Below are positions 6,117 to 25,321 of a stretch of DNA of 25,321 nucleotides, piece by piece. Position 1 is the stretch's first letter. The number at the start of each line of letters is the position of its first letter. The notes under the pieces are model-generated. The model was not told the DNA's origin, did no database searches, and saw nothing but the letters and a program-made list of their open reading frames with translations. The stretch lies in IMG/VR virus record IMGVR_UViG_3300045135_000515, positions 1 through 25,321 of that record. The stretch is one strand, 5' to 3'. This DNA is from a virus. Both the position numbers and the translations under genes were made by a program.

Positions 6117-6269
6117 ATGGATACTATAGTTTACGATGTGGTTTGGAAAGATAGTGATGGTGTCAAATATCAAGACACCTATTTTTCTGAACGGCAGGCT
6201 AAATTGCAGGTCAAGAGTCTTAACGAAGAAGGCAAAGATGCCTACATTATTGAGTGGGATGTATCCTAG
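6117..6269 (+). CDS. Small acidic protein ending in IIEWD
   Basis: 50 aa: ATG 6117 follows AAGGAG at 6105-6110. It reads MDTIVYDVVWKDSDG, a middle YFSERQAKLQVKSLNEEG and an end AYIIEWDVS. Its TAG overlaps the GTG start of the SprT-like gene. A second small protein with similar layout and a YEVIEWD end lies at 15069, also directly overlapping a zinc metallopeptidase gene. Function unknown; the pairing is discussed as a finding. Confidence 0.65.
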   Translation: MDTIVYDVVWKDSDGVKYQDTYFSERQAKLQVKSLNEEGKDAYIIEWDVS

Positions 6270-6682
6270 TGCTTAACGTTTTCTTTCAGGGTCGTGTACG
6301 TCAACAGGCGAGACTCCAAGAGTTTGCCTGTGATGTGATCAATGATTTGTTACCTCGTGAGTTCAAACGTGATATTGACATTCATGTTCGATTCACAAAG
6401 AACATCGATGCAATGGGTTACTGTCACATGGAAGACGAAGAGACGATTGCTATCGAGGTGTGTAATCAGGGAGATCTGAACCAGATCGCATCAACCATTG
6501 CACACGAGTTGGTTCATGCAAAGCAGTTCATTCGTGGTGAACTTAATGCAGGTATGACCCGTTGGAAACGGCAGGAGATCCCCGTTGGCCCTCGGGGTGG
6601 TATTCAGATTCAGTATCATGATCAACCGTGGGAACGCGAGGCGTTTGAAAAAGAGGTTGACTTGGTGAAGGCGTTTTGGTAA
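6269..6682 (+). CDS. SprT-like zinc metallopeptidase-fold protein
   Basis: 137 aa from GTG 6269 (TAGTG overlap with the preceding small gene). The zinc signature is TIAHELVHAKQF with H79, E80 and H83; the acidic PWEREAFEKE helix at ~120-129 is placed as the third ligand region in phage SprT-like proteins. The N-terminal half has an amphipathic helix and a strand HVRF. Cellular relatives (SprT/Spartan) cut DNA-bound proteins, but the phage short forms are mostly untested. The protein is compact and single-domain, without a zinc ribbon. Confidence 0.8.
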   Translation: MLNVFFQGRVRQQARLQEFACDVINDLLPREFKRDIDIHVRFTKNIDAMGYCHMEDEETIAIEVCNQGDLNQIASTIAHELVHAKQFIRGELNAGMTRWKRQEIPVGPRGGIQIQYHDQPWEREAFEKEVDLVKAFW

Positions 6683-7746: not shown

Positions 7747-8265
7747 TATAGATAGTATTGTGAGTTCGGTATGAATGGTCTAACCAACCGCCTTAACTGT
7801 CGAGGTAGATAAGACCCCGTACATTAGTCCGTAGGGAAGAACTGTGGTGGTTCGATGCTCTTGTATGTGGGGAGTCCTCGTTGACTCTTAAACGTGTGAC
7901 AGTACTCGCAATCTAATTGCGTCAGGGTACATGGAAACATGAACGCACACTACCTGTAACAAGGTCAAGTCCGTGACGGTAAAGGTGTTATCCGATTTCC
8001 CCGCCGAAAGGTTGGGAGATGCCCCATCGATATGTTGGGAACGTAAGTTGCTGAACGGTTATGAGGATTTGCAGTAGACGGATCGAAAACGCAACATCTA
8101 CTACTTATTTTCGGTGATGCTCACATCGGGGGGTTACTCATAAACAACACCCCCCAAGCTTAGCCCGAGAAGAACCACTTTGTAAGTCGTCTGTGCACGG
8201 GCGCTGATAATGGAGAATAAGGTTTGGGACTACCCGAACGAGTGTCTCCACTTTATTAAAAAAAT
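7747..8265 (+). ncRNA. Large structured non-coding RNA candidate (GOLLD/ROOL-like context)
   Basis: About 520 bases with no credible protein frame on either strand. Many local stems are visible: CCCC..TACA (7815-7823) with TGTA..GGGG (7862-7872); CGCAAT-CTA-ATTGCG (7907-7921); CATG-GAAA-CATG (7930-7941); a GAAA-capped hairpin at 7999-8017; a GCAGTAGA/TCTACTAC pairing near 8070-8103; GGGGGGT (8128-8134) with ACCCCCC (8149-8155); GCCCG (8163-8167) with CGGGC (8198-8202). The last element is TGGAGA (8211-8216) with TCTCCA (8245-8250) around GTTTGGG/CCCGAAC. A T-loop-like GGTTCGAT lies at 7850-7857. Size, two GAAA tetraloops, and location beside phage tRNA genes resemble the GOLLD and ROOL giant RNA classes; homology is untested. 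Its own promoter is unclear, so it may be processed from read-through. Confidence 0.55.
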
Positions 8266-8268
8266 CAC

Positions 8269-8298
8269 TTGACAGTAGAACATTAATTGTTATATAAT
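8269..8298 (+). promoter_or_regulatory. sigma70-type promoter P2 for the RNA operon
   Basis: -35 TTGACA (8269-8274, consensus), 18-nt spacer, -10 TATAAT (8293-8298, consensus). It is the strongest-looking promoter in the window and faces only non-coding RNA segments and the tRNA genes. Confidence 0.85.
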
Positions 8299-8324
8299 TA
8301 GTTTGTAAGTTGAGATGTTTGATC

Positions 8325-8486
8325 GTTTTAGAATGGACACTCAGGGTTGTACTCAGTGTAGTAAAACGCTGGCGTGAGTATAAATGTCCTAGCTCGTCGT
8401 AGAGATTGATCCCTCGTAGACGCACTCGACAGACCCTGCCAAATCCTAGGCTATCGGGCAATAAAAATGAGTGTCCATTCTAAAAC
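8325..8486 (+). ncRNA. Stem-bounded RNA segment A (162 nt)
   Basis: Closed by a perfect 19-bp terminal stem: GTTTTAGAATGGACACTCA (8325-8343) with its exact complement at 8468-8486. The interior has no reading frame and shows further pairing, for example CAGTG/CGCTG near 8354-8371 and CCTAG/CTAGG arms near 8388 and 8447. It starts ~20 nt after the predicted P2 start site. A long closing stem of this type is a typical RNase III substrate, so a discrete RNA may be released. Confidence 0.7.
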
Positions 8487-8538
8487 ACACTCGGTATACA
8501 GATAGTATGCAGAGACATAAGAAACGTGAGTGTGTTTT
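8482..8538 (+). ncRNA. Stem-bounded RNA segment B (57 nt)
   Basis: Closed by a perfect 11-bp stem AAAACACACTC (8482-8492) with GAGTGTGTTTT (8528-8538). Its 5' arm shares five bases with the 3' arm of segment A, so the base of one stem competes with the other. A further hairpin GACTG/CAGTC (8545-8565) follows. Confidence 0.65.
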
Positions 8539-8569
8539 CGGAATGACTGCGCCGTAAAGACAGTCCCTA

Positions 8570-8643
8570 TTTTAGAATAGACATTGTGTCCGTCCTGACA
8601 TGTCTAACACGAAGGGTGAACTGGGCCAGTGTCTATTCTAAAG
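8570..8643 (+). ncRNA. Stem-bounded RNA segment C (74 nt)
   Basis: Closed by a 14-bp stem TTTTAGAATAGACA (8570-8583) with TGTCTATTCTAAAG (8630-8643), one pair being U-G. The arms are a diverged version of those of segment A; a G-to-A change in the 5' arm is matched by C-to-T in the 3' arm. The interior is shorter than in A. Confidence 0.65.
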
Positions 8644-8731
8644 CACACTATGTCGTAAGACTGAACTTTGACATTGCGAGATAAGGGACGCCCAATGTGG
8701 ATACTTTTGAGGAGTTGGGATAGTGTGTTTT
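8640..8731 (+). ncRNA. Stem-bounded RNA segment D (92 nt)
   Basis: Closed by a 12-bp stem AAAGCACACTAT (8640-8651) with ATAGTGTGTTTT (8720-8731), one G-U pair. Arms are a diverged version of segment B with compensatory changes. An internal stem ACATTG (8671-8676) with CAATGT (8693-8698) is visible. It ends seven bases before tRNA-Thr. Confidence 0.65.
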
Positions 8732-8738
8732 ACTTTTT

Positions 8739-8813
8739 GCCGATTAAGCATAAATGGCGATGCAGTTGACTTGTAATCATCAGAAGGGGGTTCGATTCCC
8801 TCAATCGGCACCA
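8739..8813 (+). tRNA. tRNA-Thr(TGT)
   Basis: Acceptor GCCGATT/AATCGGC, D-stem GCAT/ATGC, anticodon loop CTTGTAA, T-arm with GGTTCGATT, discriminator A and encoded CCA. The anticodon stem has one T-T mismatch. Reads ACA (and by wobble ACG) codons. First tRNA after the structured segments. Confidence 0.92.
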
Positions 8814-8818
8814 ATTAT

Positions 8819-8893
8819 TCCTCGGGGGCCGCAAGGTGTGGCAGCAGACTGTTAATCTGTGATAGCTTGGTTCGATTCCAAGCCGAGGAGCCA
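8819..8893 (+). tRNA. tRNA-Asn(GTT)
   Basis: Acceptor TCCTCGG/CCGAGGA, anticodon loop CTGTTAA on a CAGA/TCTG stem, T-arm GGTTCGATTCC, discriminator G and encoded CCA. These are normal bacterial tRNA-Asn features. It starts five bases after tRNA-Thr. Confidence 0.94.
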
Positions 8894-8899
8894 ATTTTG

Positions 8900-8983
8900 G
8901 GGGAGATTGCTGAGTGGCCAAAGGCAACGGACTGTAAATCCGTCACGAGAGTTTCGATGGTTCGAATCCATCTCTCCCCACCA
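8900..8983 (+). tRNA. tRNA-Tyr(GTA)
   Basis: Class II tRNA: acceptor GGGGAGA/TCTCCCC, anticodon loop CTGTAAA on CGGA/TCCG, long variable arm (TCACGAGAGTTTCGA region), T-arm GGTTCGAATCC, A73 and encoded CCA. The variable arm and GTA anticodon identify Tyr. Confidence 0.95.
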
Positions 8984-8984
8984 C

Positions 8985-9059
8985 ACTCCTGTAGCTTAAT
9001 GGTAGAGCACGACCCTCATAAGGTTATGGTTCTTGGTTCGAATCCAAGCGGGAGTACCA
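8985..9059 (+). tRNA. tRNA with CAT anticodon (elongator Met, or Ile2)
   Basis: Acceptor ACTCCTG/CGGGAGT, anticodon loop CTCATAA, T-arm GGTTCGAATCC, A73 and encoded CCA. It pairs A1-T72 and lacks the three G-C pairs of an initiator anticodon stem, so it is not initiator tRNA. Whether C34 is modified to lysidine (Ile2 identity) cannot be read from the gene. The anticodon stem has a weak closing pair. Confidence 0.88.
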
Positions 9060-9060
9060 A

Positions 9061-9136
9061 CCCTCAGTAGTTCAGCGGATAGAATAACTGCCTTCTAAGC
9101 AGTCGGTCACTGGTTCGAATCCAGTCTGGGGGCCCA
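9061..9136 (+). tRNA. tRNA-Arg(TCT)
   Basis: Acceptor CCCTCAG/CTGGGGG, anticodon loop CTTCTAA on CTGC/GCAG, T-arm GGTTCGAATCC, encoded CCA at 9134-9136. Reads AGA/AGG, codons rare in many gammaproteobacteria. Oddly it has a C1-G72 pair and position 73 is C, whereas Arg tRNAs usually have A or G there. Confidence 0.88.
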
Positions 9137-20960: not shown

Positions 20961-22174
20961 TGGATTTTTTAGACTTCATCACAGAACAGAAGAACACCCA
21001 TATGACTCACATTGAGGATAAAGTCCTCTATGGGGGTGTTGATGGCACTCGACAGGCCATCAATGCATTGCGTGAGTTGCGTAACATGCTTGCAGGAAAG
21101 AAAGAGGGTGGAGTCTCAGTGAAGTGGGATGGTGCGCCTGCAATCTTTGCAGGTATCGACCCCCGTGATGGAGAGTTCTTTGTTGCAAAGAAAGGTATCT
21201 TCAATAAGAATCCCAAGGTCTACAAGACTGCCGCAGAGATTGATGCAGACACGTCTGGTGACCTTGCAGACAAACTCAAGGACGCCCTGAAATATCTACC
21301 AGAGTTAGGTATCAAGGGTGTCATTCAAGGTGACTTTCTGTTTGGTCGTGGTGATCTATCAACGCAGACAATTGATGGTCAGTCCTATGTGACATTTCAC
21401 CCAAACACAATTGTTTATGCAGTGCCTAAAGATCAGGCAAAGGCAGTAAAGTCTGCTAAGATTGGTATCGTATGGCATACTACATACACCGGTCGAACGT
21501 TCGAAACTATGAAGGCCTCGTATGGTGTAAACGTTGCGGGTCTCAGAAAGTCTCGTAACGTATGGTCACAGGATGCCATGTTGCGCGATGTTCGGGGTGC
21601 GACAATGTCTGCAACAGAAACAGAAAACGTCAATGCGATTCTTTCTGATATCGGAAAACTGTTTAACTCAATAACAGGGTCTACTCTTCGTGAACTCGAA
21701 GGTAATCAGATTCTTGCACAACACATCGAACAGTTCAATAACACATACGTGCGGAAAGGACAACGAATAACAAACTCAGTCGCACACACTACGAAACTGA
21801 TACGTTGGATCAAGTCTAAATATCAAAAAGAAATTGATGCACGTAAAACAGAAAAGGGTAAGTCCACACAACAGAAGAAGTTGGACGACCTGTTAAGTTT
21901 CTTTTCTGATTCAAACAAAAAAAGTCTGATTAAGATGTTTGAATTACAAAAATTGATTGTGGACGCAAAGTTAATTCTTATAAATAAACTTAATCGGATC
22001 GGTTCTCTTGAAACTTTTGTGAAAACTTCCAAAGGTTACAAGGTTACTGGTCAAGAAGGTTATGTAGCAATTGACACACTTGGTGGTGACGCTGTTAAGT
22101 TAGTAGATAGGATGGAGTTCAGTTATAATAACTTTTCTCCCGATATCCTGAAAGGGTGGCAAAAGAAAAGATGA
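20960..22174 (+). CDS. Ligase-fold protein with KxDG motif (DUF6267-like), late
   Basis: 404 aa. The segment VSVKWDGAPAIFAGIDP contains K55-W-D57-G58, the nucleotidyl-lysine motif I of DNA/RNA ligases and capping enzymes. A strand FFVAKKGIF (motif III-like) and IKGVIQGDFLFGR (motif IV-like, with D125) follow. The C-terminal ~170 residues are helical and charged. I recall this as a DUF6267-type family of marine T4-like phages; ligase activity is not established. The N-terminus MDFLDFITEQ resembles a T4 capsid-targeting sequence with a possible protease site after FITE. A TATAAATA box occurs inside at 21979-21986. The stop overlaps the homing endonuclease start. Confidence 0.7.
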   Translation: MDFLDFITEQKNTHMTHIEDKVLYGGVDGTRQAINALRELRNMLAGKKEGGVSVKWDGAPAIFAGIDPRDGEFFVAKKGIFNKNPKVYKTAAEIDADTSGDLADKLKDALKYLPELGIKGVIQGDFLFGRGDLSTQTIDGQSYVTFHPNTIVYAVPKDQAKAVKSAKIGIVWHTTYTGRTFETMKASYGVNVAGLRKSRNVWSQDAMLRDVRGATMSATETENVNAILSDIGKLFNSITGSTLRELEGNQILAQHIEQFNNTYVRKGQRITNSVAHTTKLIRWIKSKYQKEIDARKTEKGKSTQQKKLDDLLSFFSDSNKKSLIKMFELQKLIVDAKLILINKLNRIGSLETFVKTSKGYKVTGQEGYVAIDTLGGDAVKLVDRMEFSYNNFSPDILKGWQKKR

Positions 22175-22725
22175 TAGAAGTTTATGGCATATTCGAGAAC
22201 AAGACCAACGACATTGTTTATGTCGGTCAAACCTCTCGTGGCCATAAACAGAGATTTAACGAACACAAGAACACTAAAGGGTTTGACCCATCGAAGTATT
22301 CGATTAAAGTTCTAAAAGAATGTTCCGTTGATGAATTAGATAAGTGGGAAAAACATTACATAAAAAAATACGACACTTTATCTAAATGGAACAAGCAAGA
22401 CGGTGGTAAGAATCCAAGGGGTTATAACATACCACCAAGGGTTCAGTCCAAAGAAGAAATTGAATGGAGAAGTGAGTGGATGAAAGAAAATAATCCACTT
22501 TCAAATCCAGAAACGAGAAAGAAAAAATCACAGACTATGACAGAGTTGTATTCCTCTGGCAAGTTAGAAAATCCAATGGCTAAGAAGTGGTTGGTAGAAT
22601 ACGAAAACGGTAGAAGTGAATGTGTTGTCTCTTTGAAAAAATGGTGTCGAGAAAAGTCCTACAACTATATGGCACTATACAACGGACGACAAGATAAAGA
22701 TATAGTTAGAGTTATTAAACTTTAA
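22171..22725 (+). CDS. GIY-YIG homing endonuclease (Seg-like)
   Basis: 184 aa from ATG 22171 (ATGA overlap). The GIY-YIG module is MIEVYGIFENKTNDIVYVGQ with Y5-G-I and Y17-V-G, then R28 in QRFNEH (equivalent to the catalytic Arg of I-TevI) and the E of DKWEKHYIKKYDT, then WNKQDGG. It is followed by a NUMOD3-like DNA-binding motif NNPLSNPETRKKKSQTM and a basic C-terminal part. Such free-standing enzymes cut a related phage's DNA near the insertion point and spread by repair. It looks more A/T-rich than its neighbours, consistent with recent arrival, and separates two late genes. Confidence 0.92.
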   Translation: MIEVYGIFENKTNDIVYVGQTSRGHKQRFNEHKNTKGFDPSKYSIKVLKECSVDELDKWEKHYIKKYDTLSKWNKQDGGKNPRGYNIPPRVQSKEEIEWRSEWMKENNPLSNPETRKKKSQTMTELYSSGKLENPMAKKWLVEYENGRSECVVSLKKWCREKSYNYMALYNGRQDKDIVRVIKL

Positions 22726-23189: not shown

Positions 23190-24604
23190 TGAGTAAAGTT
23201 CCATCGTTTAGTCAATATCTCGTTGAAGAGACTCGCGAAGTATTTTTCACTTTTGGTCGTATGAATCCACCAACTATCGGTCACGGTAAGTTGATGAATG
23301 TGATGTCTGCAAAGGCGGGTAAGAACCCATACAAAGTATATCTGTCGCAGTCTAGTGATCCTCGTAAGAATCCATTGACCTACGAACAGAAGATCAAACA
23401 CTCTCGTAAAATGTATCCCAAACATGCACGGTCAATCATCAAGGACAAGAAACTACGTAATGTCTTTGAGGTTGCATCGTCTCTGTATGACCAAGGATTT
23501 AATCGTATCACAATGGTTGTTGGTGCGGATCGTATTACAGAGTTTGAGACACTCCTGAACAAATACAACGGTGTCAAAGGCCGTCACGGTTTCTACAACT
23601 TCGAAAAGATCAATGTTGTATCTGCGGGTGATCGTGATCCAGATGCAGAAGGTGTTGAAGGTATGTCTGCGTCTAAACAACGTGAGAATGCCAAGAATAA
23701 TGATTTCACAACATTCTCTCAAGGCATCCCATCGTCTATGTCTAATAAGGACGCAAAACGATTGTTCAATGACGTTCGTGCGGGTATGGGATTGAAAGAA
23801 ACTACTCAATTCAAGAACCATATTGCACTAGAATCGGTTTCTGAAACACGTGAAAAATTCATTGAAGGGGAGTTGTTTAATGAGGGTGATGAAGTTTTTA
23901 TCAAGAGTTCTGGAAAGAGCGGACATATCCACCGCCTTGGTGCTAATTATGTTATCGTTGCTCTGGATGAAGGTCGCATATCTCGTGAATGGTTGGATAA
24001 TGTAGAGAAAATAGATGAGGCTGGGTTTGGTAACAGTCGGTCTGTCTTTCATGATCTAATGCCAAATCTCGATAACTTCCTTGATCGTTTTGGTGGTGGT
24101 CGTAAAAGGTGGAAGTATGCGATACAACAATATCAACGGTTGGACAAAGAAAACCCCAAAGCAAATTTAAACACGAAGGCATATAAGGCAGCACAGATCG
24201 CTGACGTAGATGTCCGTGGACTGCGTGATCTTATTCAGAAAATGCAGAAGGAAGAAACCTATTCACCTCAGAAACACGAGTGGGGTACTGATGCGGCGAC
24301 TAAGTGGGCAAAGTCTATGACCCCTGGCGAGACCGTCAAGGAAGCAGACGATGAATTATCTGCGGTGAGACGCAGCATCGAAAAAGAAAAGGATCAAGAT
24401 AAAAAGAAACACGATCGTATGTTGGATCGTGCAAGACTTGCCCGTGCAAGGCGTAAGAATAAAGAAACAAGACCTACTCAAGAGTCGAAGGGTAATCCAG
24501 TTGCAAAGAATTTGAACAAGTTCAACAAACCTGCAACGCACAAAGACAAAAAGAAAGATGATAAACGTGGTTATTTAAAACACAAGGGTAACTTAGATGG
24601 CTAG
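23189..24604 (+). CDS. Nucleotidyltransferase-fold protein (cytidylyltransferase/NMNAT-like) with extra C-terminal domains
   Basis: 471 aa. Residues 1-14 (MSKVPSFSQYLVEE) look like a leader with a possible cut after YLVE. The catalytic domain (15-200) has TFGRMNPPTIGHGKL with T29-x-G31-H32, MVVGADRITEF (110-119) and MSASKQR (159-165), the set of HxGH-type nucleotidyltransferases. A second region (~227-275, NEGDEVFIKSSGKSGHIHRL and VIVALDEGRIS) looks like a small KOW/SH3-type barrel. A helical region (~280-370) and a very K/R-rich tail (KKKHDRMLDRARLARARR) follow. Substrate unknown. This multi-domain layout is known from marine T4-type phages; late expression and basic tail suggest packaging in the head. 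Confidence 0.75.
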   Translation: MSKVPSFSQYLVEETREVFFTFGRMNPPTIGHGKLMNVMSAKAGKNPYKVYLSQSSDPRKNPLTYEQKIKHSRKMYPKHARSIIKDKKLRNVFEVASSLYDQGFNRITMVVGADRITEFETLLNKYNGVKGRHGFYNFEKINVVSAGDRDPDAEGVEGMSASKQRENAKNNDFTTFSQGIPSSMSNKDAKRLFNDVRAGMGLKETTQFKNHIALESVSETREKFIEGELFNEGDEVFIKSSGKSGHIHRLGANYVIVALDEGRISREWLDNVEKIDEAGFGNSRSVFHDLMPNLDNFLDRFGGGRKRWKYAIQQYQRLDKENPKANLNTKAYKAAQIADVDVRGLRDLIQKMQKEETYSPQKHEWGTDAATKWAKSMTPGETVKEADDELSAVRRSIEKEKDQDKKKHDRMLDRARLARARRKNKETRPTQESKGNPVAKNLNKFNKPATHKDKKKDDKRGYLKHKGNLDG

Positions 24605-25321
24605 GGATTATAAGAAGGAATACGCCAACTATCATTCGCGACCCGAACAGATTAAAAGACGTGCTGCACGTAATGCGGCTCGTCGTGCAATGCGTGGTCG
24701 AAAGGAACTGACTGACGAGAAAGATGTACATCACAAGGATAACAATCCGATGAACAATGACAAGTCTAACCTTTCGATTGTGACCAAACACTACAATCGT
24801 CGTGAACCTAGACTCCGTGTAGAAGACCTACGCAAGTGGTTCGGTAAGGGTAAGAAAGGTGATTGGATTCGTGTTGGTACGGACGGAGAGATTAAAGGTG
24901 ATTGTGCACGGGAACCAGACGAAGGTAAACCCAAGTGTATGCCTCGTGACAAGGCACATAGTATGTCTAAGAAGGATAGAGCATCTGCGGCTCGAAGAAA
25001 GAGACGCGCAGATCCAGACGCAGATAGGCCAGGAACAGGGAATAAACCGATTATGGTAAAAACAGACAAGAAAGAATCAGTGAACGAAAAGAATGTCCCA
25101 ACAAATCCCAAGTTGTGGGCAAAGTTCAAAGCACAAGCAAAATCAAAATTCGATGTTTATCCTTCTGCATATGCAAACGGATGGGCTGCAAAACAATACA
25201 AAGCCGCAGGTGGTGGTTGGAAAACGGAGAGTGTAAAAGAAATGAAAACCTTCAATGATGTTCGAGAAAAGTCTGTATCTCAAGCACAACAGAAGATGAT
25301 GGCCATGGCACTTGCGTACAA
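24597..25321 (+). CDS. Composite basic protein with HNH-like region (3' end outside window)
   Basis: ATG 24597 overlaps the previous gene by 8 bases; the frame is open for 241 codons to the end. A basic helix (RRAARNAARRAMRGRKEL) precedes an HNH-like segment DVHHKDNNPMNNDKSNLSIV (H45, H46, N54, N58). Next is a region GDWIRVGTDGEIKGDCAREP with Cys pairs and MSKKDRASAARRKRRADP, a repeat unit familiar from marine phage proteins. Then come NPKLWAKFKAQAKSKFDVYP with SAYANGWAAKQYKAAGG, and finally MKTFNDVREK leading into SVSQAQQKMMAMALAY, which resembles the start of DUF3008. It looks like four small phage domains strung together. Confidence 0.7.
   Translation, partial: MARDYKKEYANYHSRPEQIKRRAARNAARRAMRGRKELTDEKDVHHKDNNPMNNDKSNLSIVTKHYNRREPRLRVEDLRKWFGKGKKGDWIRVGTDGEIKGDCAREPDEGKPKCMPRDKAHSMSKKDRASAARRKRRADPDADRPGTGNKPIMVKTDKKESVNEKNVPTNPKLWAKFKAQAKSKFDVYPSAYANGWAAKQYKAAGGGWKTESVKEMKTFNDVREKSVSQAQQKMMAMALAY

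Follow-up and report, generated by a model that had tools for sequence, protein, structure and literature searches.

A candidate modular phage non-coding RNA beside a tRNA array, with a putative circularly permuted abiF-like domain

The DNA analysed here (the window) is a 25,321-nucleotide (25.3-kb) IMG/VR virus record that encodes a UvsX-like recombinase and a DnaB-like helicase, with the nearest named helicases, at 60 to 68% identity, found in Phage C48C1 and T4-like cyanophages. Its longest stretch without a plausible protein gene spans positions 7747 to 8738 (992 nt) and is flanked by a small open reading frame and the first of five tRNA genes (8739). A preliminary description from the sequence alone had singled out 7747-8265 as the largest protein-free block, which is correct apart from the wider true span; its statement that all other gaps stay under about 190 nt was slightly low, the next largest being 216, 213, 196, and 177 nt. 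The sole open reading frame of at least 50 amino acids in the block (8138-8461, minus strand) gave no significant match to PHROG or Pfam families, and no sign was found of a decayed protein gene, raised in that description as the counter-possibility. The stretch 7747-8265 is the first half of the block and ends just 5' of a sigma70-type promoter (8269-8298). Past this promoter, the second half of the block serves as the tRNA-unit leader, and 7747-8265 itself yielded no promoter. Elsewhere in the window, 22156-22725 and 24597-25319 encode possible homing endonucleases (PHROG homing endonuclease match; HNH-like N terminus) among genes of unknown function. The features of the block and of the tRNA array are as follows.

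About 7768-7914, plus strand: 5' domain (D5), with helices 7796-7802/7897-7903 and about 7815-7822/7863-7870
7915-7992, plus strand: M2 domain, with a CAUG-GAAA-CAUG hairpin (7930-7941) and a CCUGUAACAAGGUC..CCGUGACGG core (model R2)
7993-8106, plus strand: linker with predicted hairpins, including a GAAA hairpin at about 7999-8015 (folding only)
8108-8171, plus strand: putative permuted abiF-like domain (six copies, rotated-motif scan), with closing helix 8108-8114/8165-8171, abiF core pairs 8119-8121/8157-8159, and sealed basal stem 8128-8133/8150-8155
8181-8249, plus strand: conserved two-part 3' domain of 69 nt, a hairpin followed by a hairpin within a terminator-like stem (model R1)
8269-8298, plus strand: promoter TTGACA-18-TATAAT of the tRNA-array leader, sigma70-type, 12 of 12 consensus positions matched
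8327-8484, plus strand: M1 cassette in a TTTAG...CTAAA clamp stem, with a possible pseudoknot (partial support)
8485-8547, plus strand: hairpin ACACACTC...GAGTGTGTTTTC (inverted repeat)
8571-8642, plus strand: second TTTAG...CTAAA clamp stem, with a different 40-nt cargo
8639-8732, plus strand: second GCACACTAT...ATAGTGTGTTTTA stem
8739-9136, plus strand: tRNA array for Thr, Asn, Tyr, Met, and Arg (ARAGORN and Rfam)

The folding energy of 7747-8265 is unexceptional (z of -1.70, equalled by 6 of 100 shuffles), and since it is only mildly low, nested stems alone are weak evidence. This stretch is a real structured RNA, and the proof lies in covariation in related phages rather than in folding energy. 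Relatives were gathered by pattern scans of IMG/VR; along the route via neighbouring proteins, relatives of the window helicase lacked the block and the protein encoded at 6254-6682 yielded no relatives. Model R1 recovered 20 copies of the 3' domain among 84 sources, including copies outside model building, such as that in L137 and a second one in L093. In the 3' domain alignment, which was fitted to model R1, 98.9% of cells are paired, and compensatory change was seen in 14 of 17 pairs; none of the shuffles attained this, and slid versions fall to 34-53%. Nothing above noise was obtained with R1 in S-CREM1, S-SZBM1, Acj61, PZL-Ah8, Grass, Thibault, or the three Vibrio phages 1.012.O, 1.193.O, and 1.063.O. 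A bacterial reservoir of the 3' module was considered and rejected, as the contexts of 12 pattern matches in 257 Gb of genomes, inspected by eye, were unlike the module (chance or coding), and matches in L088, L090, and L120 were likewise judged by context to be chance.

For M2, model R2 gave ten confident copies, including those of Vibrio phages L112, L113, and L116, with 98.7% of alignment cells paired and compensatory change in 8 of 15 pairs. The CATG-GAAA-CATG hairpin at 7930-7941 is kept with compensation (CATC-GAAA-GATG in L094), and its loop exchanges GAAA and GCAA among relatives. In Vibrio phages 1.012.O, 1.193.O, and 1.063.O, M2 is located inside unannotated tracts; those of 1.193.O (L113:2570-3955) and 1.063.O (L116:2746-3900) are non-coding, about 1.2 to 1.4 kb long, and share with each other M2 and other sequence, possibly representing another large phage RNA. 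The 5' domain is common to the window, L189, L118, and L094, with compensated pairs in the RNAalifold prediction for alignment A7, which holds only these 4 sequences. The linker (7993-8106) had no BLAST match and is not conserved in the relatives found. Thus, the preliminary picture of a highly structured stretch is borne out by conserved structure of the 3' domain, M2, and the 5' domain in related phages, and the "double hairpin" noted at its end corresponds to the covarying 3' domain; of the two GAAA hairpins pointed out there, the one at 7930-7941 is conserved and the one at about 7999-8015 is supported by folding only.

The proposed kinship with GOLLD and ROOL RNAs proved wrong. In a cmscan of the window against all Rfam families, only the tRNAs reached the gathering score, and at E values up to 5 nothing relevant appeared in the block, with GOLLD, ROOL, HEARO, and OLE all absent. 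In place of one ornate fold we found a string of independent modules: its pieces recur in IMG/VR phage contigs in different arrangements, for the most part next to tRNAs, and L189 keeps the order of the window (5' domain, M2, abiF in its ordinary form, and 3' domain). The parts are conserved as RNA structure in related phages and shuffled between phages, mostly beside tRNA genes. GOLLD and ROOL are likewise large, structured RNAs of phages and lie close to tRNA islands (PMC12286853), and the location of the window RNA near five tRNA genes resembles theirs but is not specific to them. A large structural RNA working like GOLLD or ROOL, through self-assembly, packaging, or ribosome or tRNA binding, with the abiF-like fold as a borrowed building block, would fit a large phage-borne RNA with a conserved GNRA hairpin beside tRNAs as well as the recurrence of M2 in the long non-coding Vibrio-phage tracts; we regard it as decidedly unlikely given the lack of any sequence, structure, or Rfam match to either family and the separate occurrence of the modules in varying orders, which is unlike one fixed fold. 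What stands of the original proposal is a structured, phage-borne, tRNA-linked, and possibly new class of RNA. Just one of the modules has a known relative, and it points toward the antitoxin RNA of AbiF (abiF, RF03085), not to RNA cages. Our preferred reading of 7747-8265 is a modular non-coding RNA of the phage, about 480 to 500 nt long and composed of the 5' domain, M2, a putative permuted abiF-like domain, and the 3' domain.

The abiF RNA is the antitoxin of AbiF/Abi_2, as exemplified by RCd22 of C. difficile prophages. An ordinary abiF motif lies no more than 180 nt upstream of the 3' domain in 9 of the 20 copies. In L093, a sequence adjoining tRNA-Asn matches the Rfam abiF consensus at 32 of 32 positions and lies shortly before the 3' domain; L095, L133, L137, L171, and L189 likewise carry abiF that scores higher than the Rfam threshold (RF03085 gathering score, 37 bits). 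In L087, abiF carries a domain inserted in its terminal loop, and in L092 and L096 the 3' domain is present without abiF upstream. In the window, the region 8108-8171 occupies the slot that an exact ordinary copy fills in sister phage RNAs. It shares with abiF the N-GC/GC-N' core, the AUGCNCAnnnnGG strand, and the basal stem, but departs from the strand order of ordinary abiF (basal stem, NGC, CUCU loop, GCN', basal stem); the core with its AUGCNCAnnnnG strand is present in permuted order, UUAG stands where ordinary abiF has the CUCU strand, and the halves are swapped (GAUGCNCAnnnCG, stem-loop, and NGC-UUAG within the closing helix). The window differs from RF03085 further in the RNA of about 500 nt around the motif, in the absence of a detected AbiF gene, and in a score below Rfam detection, the window copy giving no match to the covariance model even at E 5. 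This permuted form was found in six R1 copies (window, L086, the second copy in L093, L094, L098, and L119). Its variable core pair is U-A, C-G, or G-C, which is the same variation as in ordinary abiF subtypes. We therefore read 8108-8171, as a strong inference from sequence, as a circularly permuted abiF RNA. It might have originated by opening of the variable terminal hairpin of abiF into the closing helix and sealing of the basal stem by a loop; in toxin-linked bacterial abiF RNAs (L210 and L217), hairpin length varies where the permuted form is opened.

The resemblance might also be coincidental, with 8108-8171 being some other stem-loop domain, part of a new RNA class without an assigned function. 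The rotated-motif scan (3.5 Mb) ranked L098 first and the window third but beat three shuffled sets by only 1 to 2 points (28.4 versus 27.3), a score that is weak by itself. The permuted sequences are few (5 distinct ones, three with an A.A mismatch in the closing helix), shuffle support is modest (16 of 500), and the UUAG strand is altered relative to abiF. The isolated segment folds as proposed (z of -3.07). The main support for a permuted abiF comes from position and covariation. A coincidence appears unlikely considering the shared slot in sister RNAs, a 12-nt identity (ATGCTCAAATCG) to ordinary abiF in L086 and L119, the N-GC/GC-N' covariation, and the insertion of a domain in the same loop in L087.

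A further explanation is that the stretch is a transcription-unit element, mainly a processing leader, spacer, and terminator parting gene expression from the tRNA array, in which the abiF-like and 3' domains act as terminators. The final stem of the 3' domain is followed by ACTTTATT just before a new promoter, T-runs follow many viral abiF motifs, and toxin-linked abiF RNAs likewise precede T-runs. A terminator would need neither an invariant loop sequence nor 500 nt of covarying structure, and the 3' domain occurs also away from tRNAs (L089, L092, and L096), and we consider this reading quite unlikely. In the viral contigs L125, L128, L139, L144, L181, and others, for which no AbiF gene was detected, a T-run comes directly after ordinary abiF, as though the motif served as a terminator too.

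Matches to abiF RNA were found in 30 of 616 sampled bacterial genomes, and 22 of 34 such matches adjoin a gene similar to phiC2 AbiF; several of these toxin-adjoining RNAs carry the loop sequences of the phage RNAs. Abi_2 (PF07751) was undetected in 96 phage records bearing the abiF motif or its partner modules, with phage phiC2 scoring 168 bits as a control, and no Abi_2 gene was detected in the window contig. Many of these viral contigs are fragmentary, and an AbiF gene might be located outside them. Among named phages, orphan abiF above the Rfam threshold is carried by S-SZBM1, S-CREM1, Thibault, Acj61, PZL-Ah8, and others, several copies lying within or beside tRNA arrays. Many other viral copies had no tRNA nearby in the DNA fetched and a terminator-like look, so that linkage to tRNAs is no general property of orphan abiF. 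In Bacillus phage Grass, a tract of about 840 nt without an annotated gene (L202:1330-2170) lies beside tRNAs and holds an abiF-like sequence, CCTACACGCCTCTTAACAATGCGGACCACGGTAGG, below the Rfam threshold.

Like the window RNA, the orphan abiF sRNA of cyanophage S-CREM1 (PMC9964418) comes with a phage tRNA array and lacks an accompanying AbiF gene. It differs in having the ordinary 37-nt form between two tRNAs, with no larger RNA described in the accessible text. That text calls it probably functional during infection, and neither it nor the accessible part of a review (PMC12197685) proposes an AbiF-neutralising role. In S-CREM1 (L199), manA and wcaG RNAs also lie within the tRNA array, and a non-regulatory reading of both may be deserved.

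In our view, the best explanation of the window RNA, to which we assign a probability of about 0.5 from sequence comparison, is that the phage encodes an imitation of the RNA antitoxin of AbiF, with which it would neutralise host AbiF. Its abiF-like domain would fold like abiF RNA, which binds and silences the Abi_2 HEPN RNase toxin AbiF. Produced during infection, the RNA would attach to host AbiF in trans, acting as a surrogate antitoxin, and the toxin would stay inactive once the phage takes over and the RNA antitoxin made by the host itself runs low. The remaining domains (5', M2, and 3') would give the abiF-like domain stability, help to present it, or have other targets. The permuted fold, AbiF binding, and the anti-defence benefit are what we infer; we favour the surrogate-antitoxin role because an antitoxin fold without its toxin offers a phage no obvious gain beyond protection from host AbiF. 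Phage counter-defence against type III toxin-antitoxin systems is provided by pseudo-ToxI RNA. The phage protein TifA also counters a type III system, according to the accessible part of its report (PMC10853763). Both are likewise phage products directed at an RNA-controlled RNase toxin, but the toxin family is another one, TifA is a protein, and in the window the role is a candidate only. A precedent for binding in trans is RCd22, which contains two abiF motifs, is encoded by a C. difficile prophage, and neutralises AbiF in trans by direct binding (PMC12373285). For the permuted abiF, the orphan-abiF pattern, and the 3', M2, and M1 domains, no prior report was found in mostly openly accessible literature, nor did a search by title, within what titles convey, find a description of phage decoy antitoxins in tRNA arrays.

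The second half of the block contains, at 8300-8738, a second array of RNA cassettes leading into the five tRNAs, with no BLAST match in named phages. M1 was found in six copies, with compensatory change in 13 of 38 pairs; the helix of its possible pseudoknot is only 80% paired. The loop of the 8485-8547 hairpin resembles sequence near a permuted tmRNA in L087 (BLAST match 8487-8525). This tmRNA (L087:629-888; RF04321, 112.5 bits) lies in a phage array beside a 3' domain and a clamp cassette. Such clamp-stem cassettes, with invariant TTTAG...CTAAA ends, covarying interiors, and differing cargoes of 38 to 140 nt, are scattered through phage tRNA arrays and were seen at 8300-8738 of the window and in L084, L085, L086, L087, L093, L094, L095, L098, L117, L118, and L133. 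The clamps may be processing stems or mark shuffled cassettes.

It is tempting to speculate, tentatively and with considerable doubt, that phage tRNA arrays carry swappable cassettes of counter-defence RNA, namely the clamp-stem modules, M1, M2, the 3' domain, and abiF mimics in ordinary or permuted form. Each would decoy a different RNA-binding host defence and be shuffled from phage to phage like protein anti-defence islands. The window RNA would then be one compound decoy, perhaps containing the first RNA antitoxin found circularly permuted in nature. AbiF-type HEPN toxins have been reported as relatives of Cas13 ancestors and are restrained by an RNA. If lytic phages carry orphan and even permuted abiF within or next to tRNA arrays, this would amount to RNA-based counter-defence against a widespread system and would account for some otherwise unexplained non-coding DNA in these arrays. 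Whatever their function, the 3', M2, and M1 domains are well-supported RNA structures absent from Rfam.
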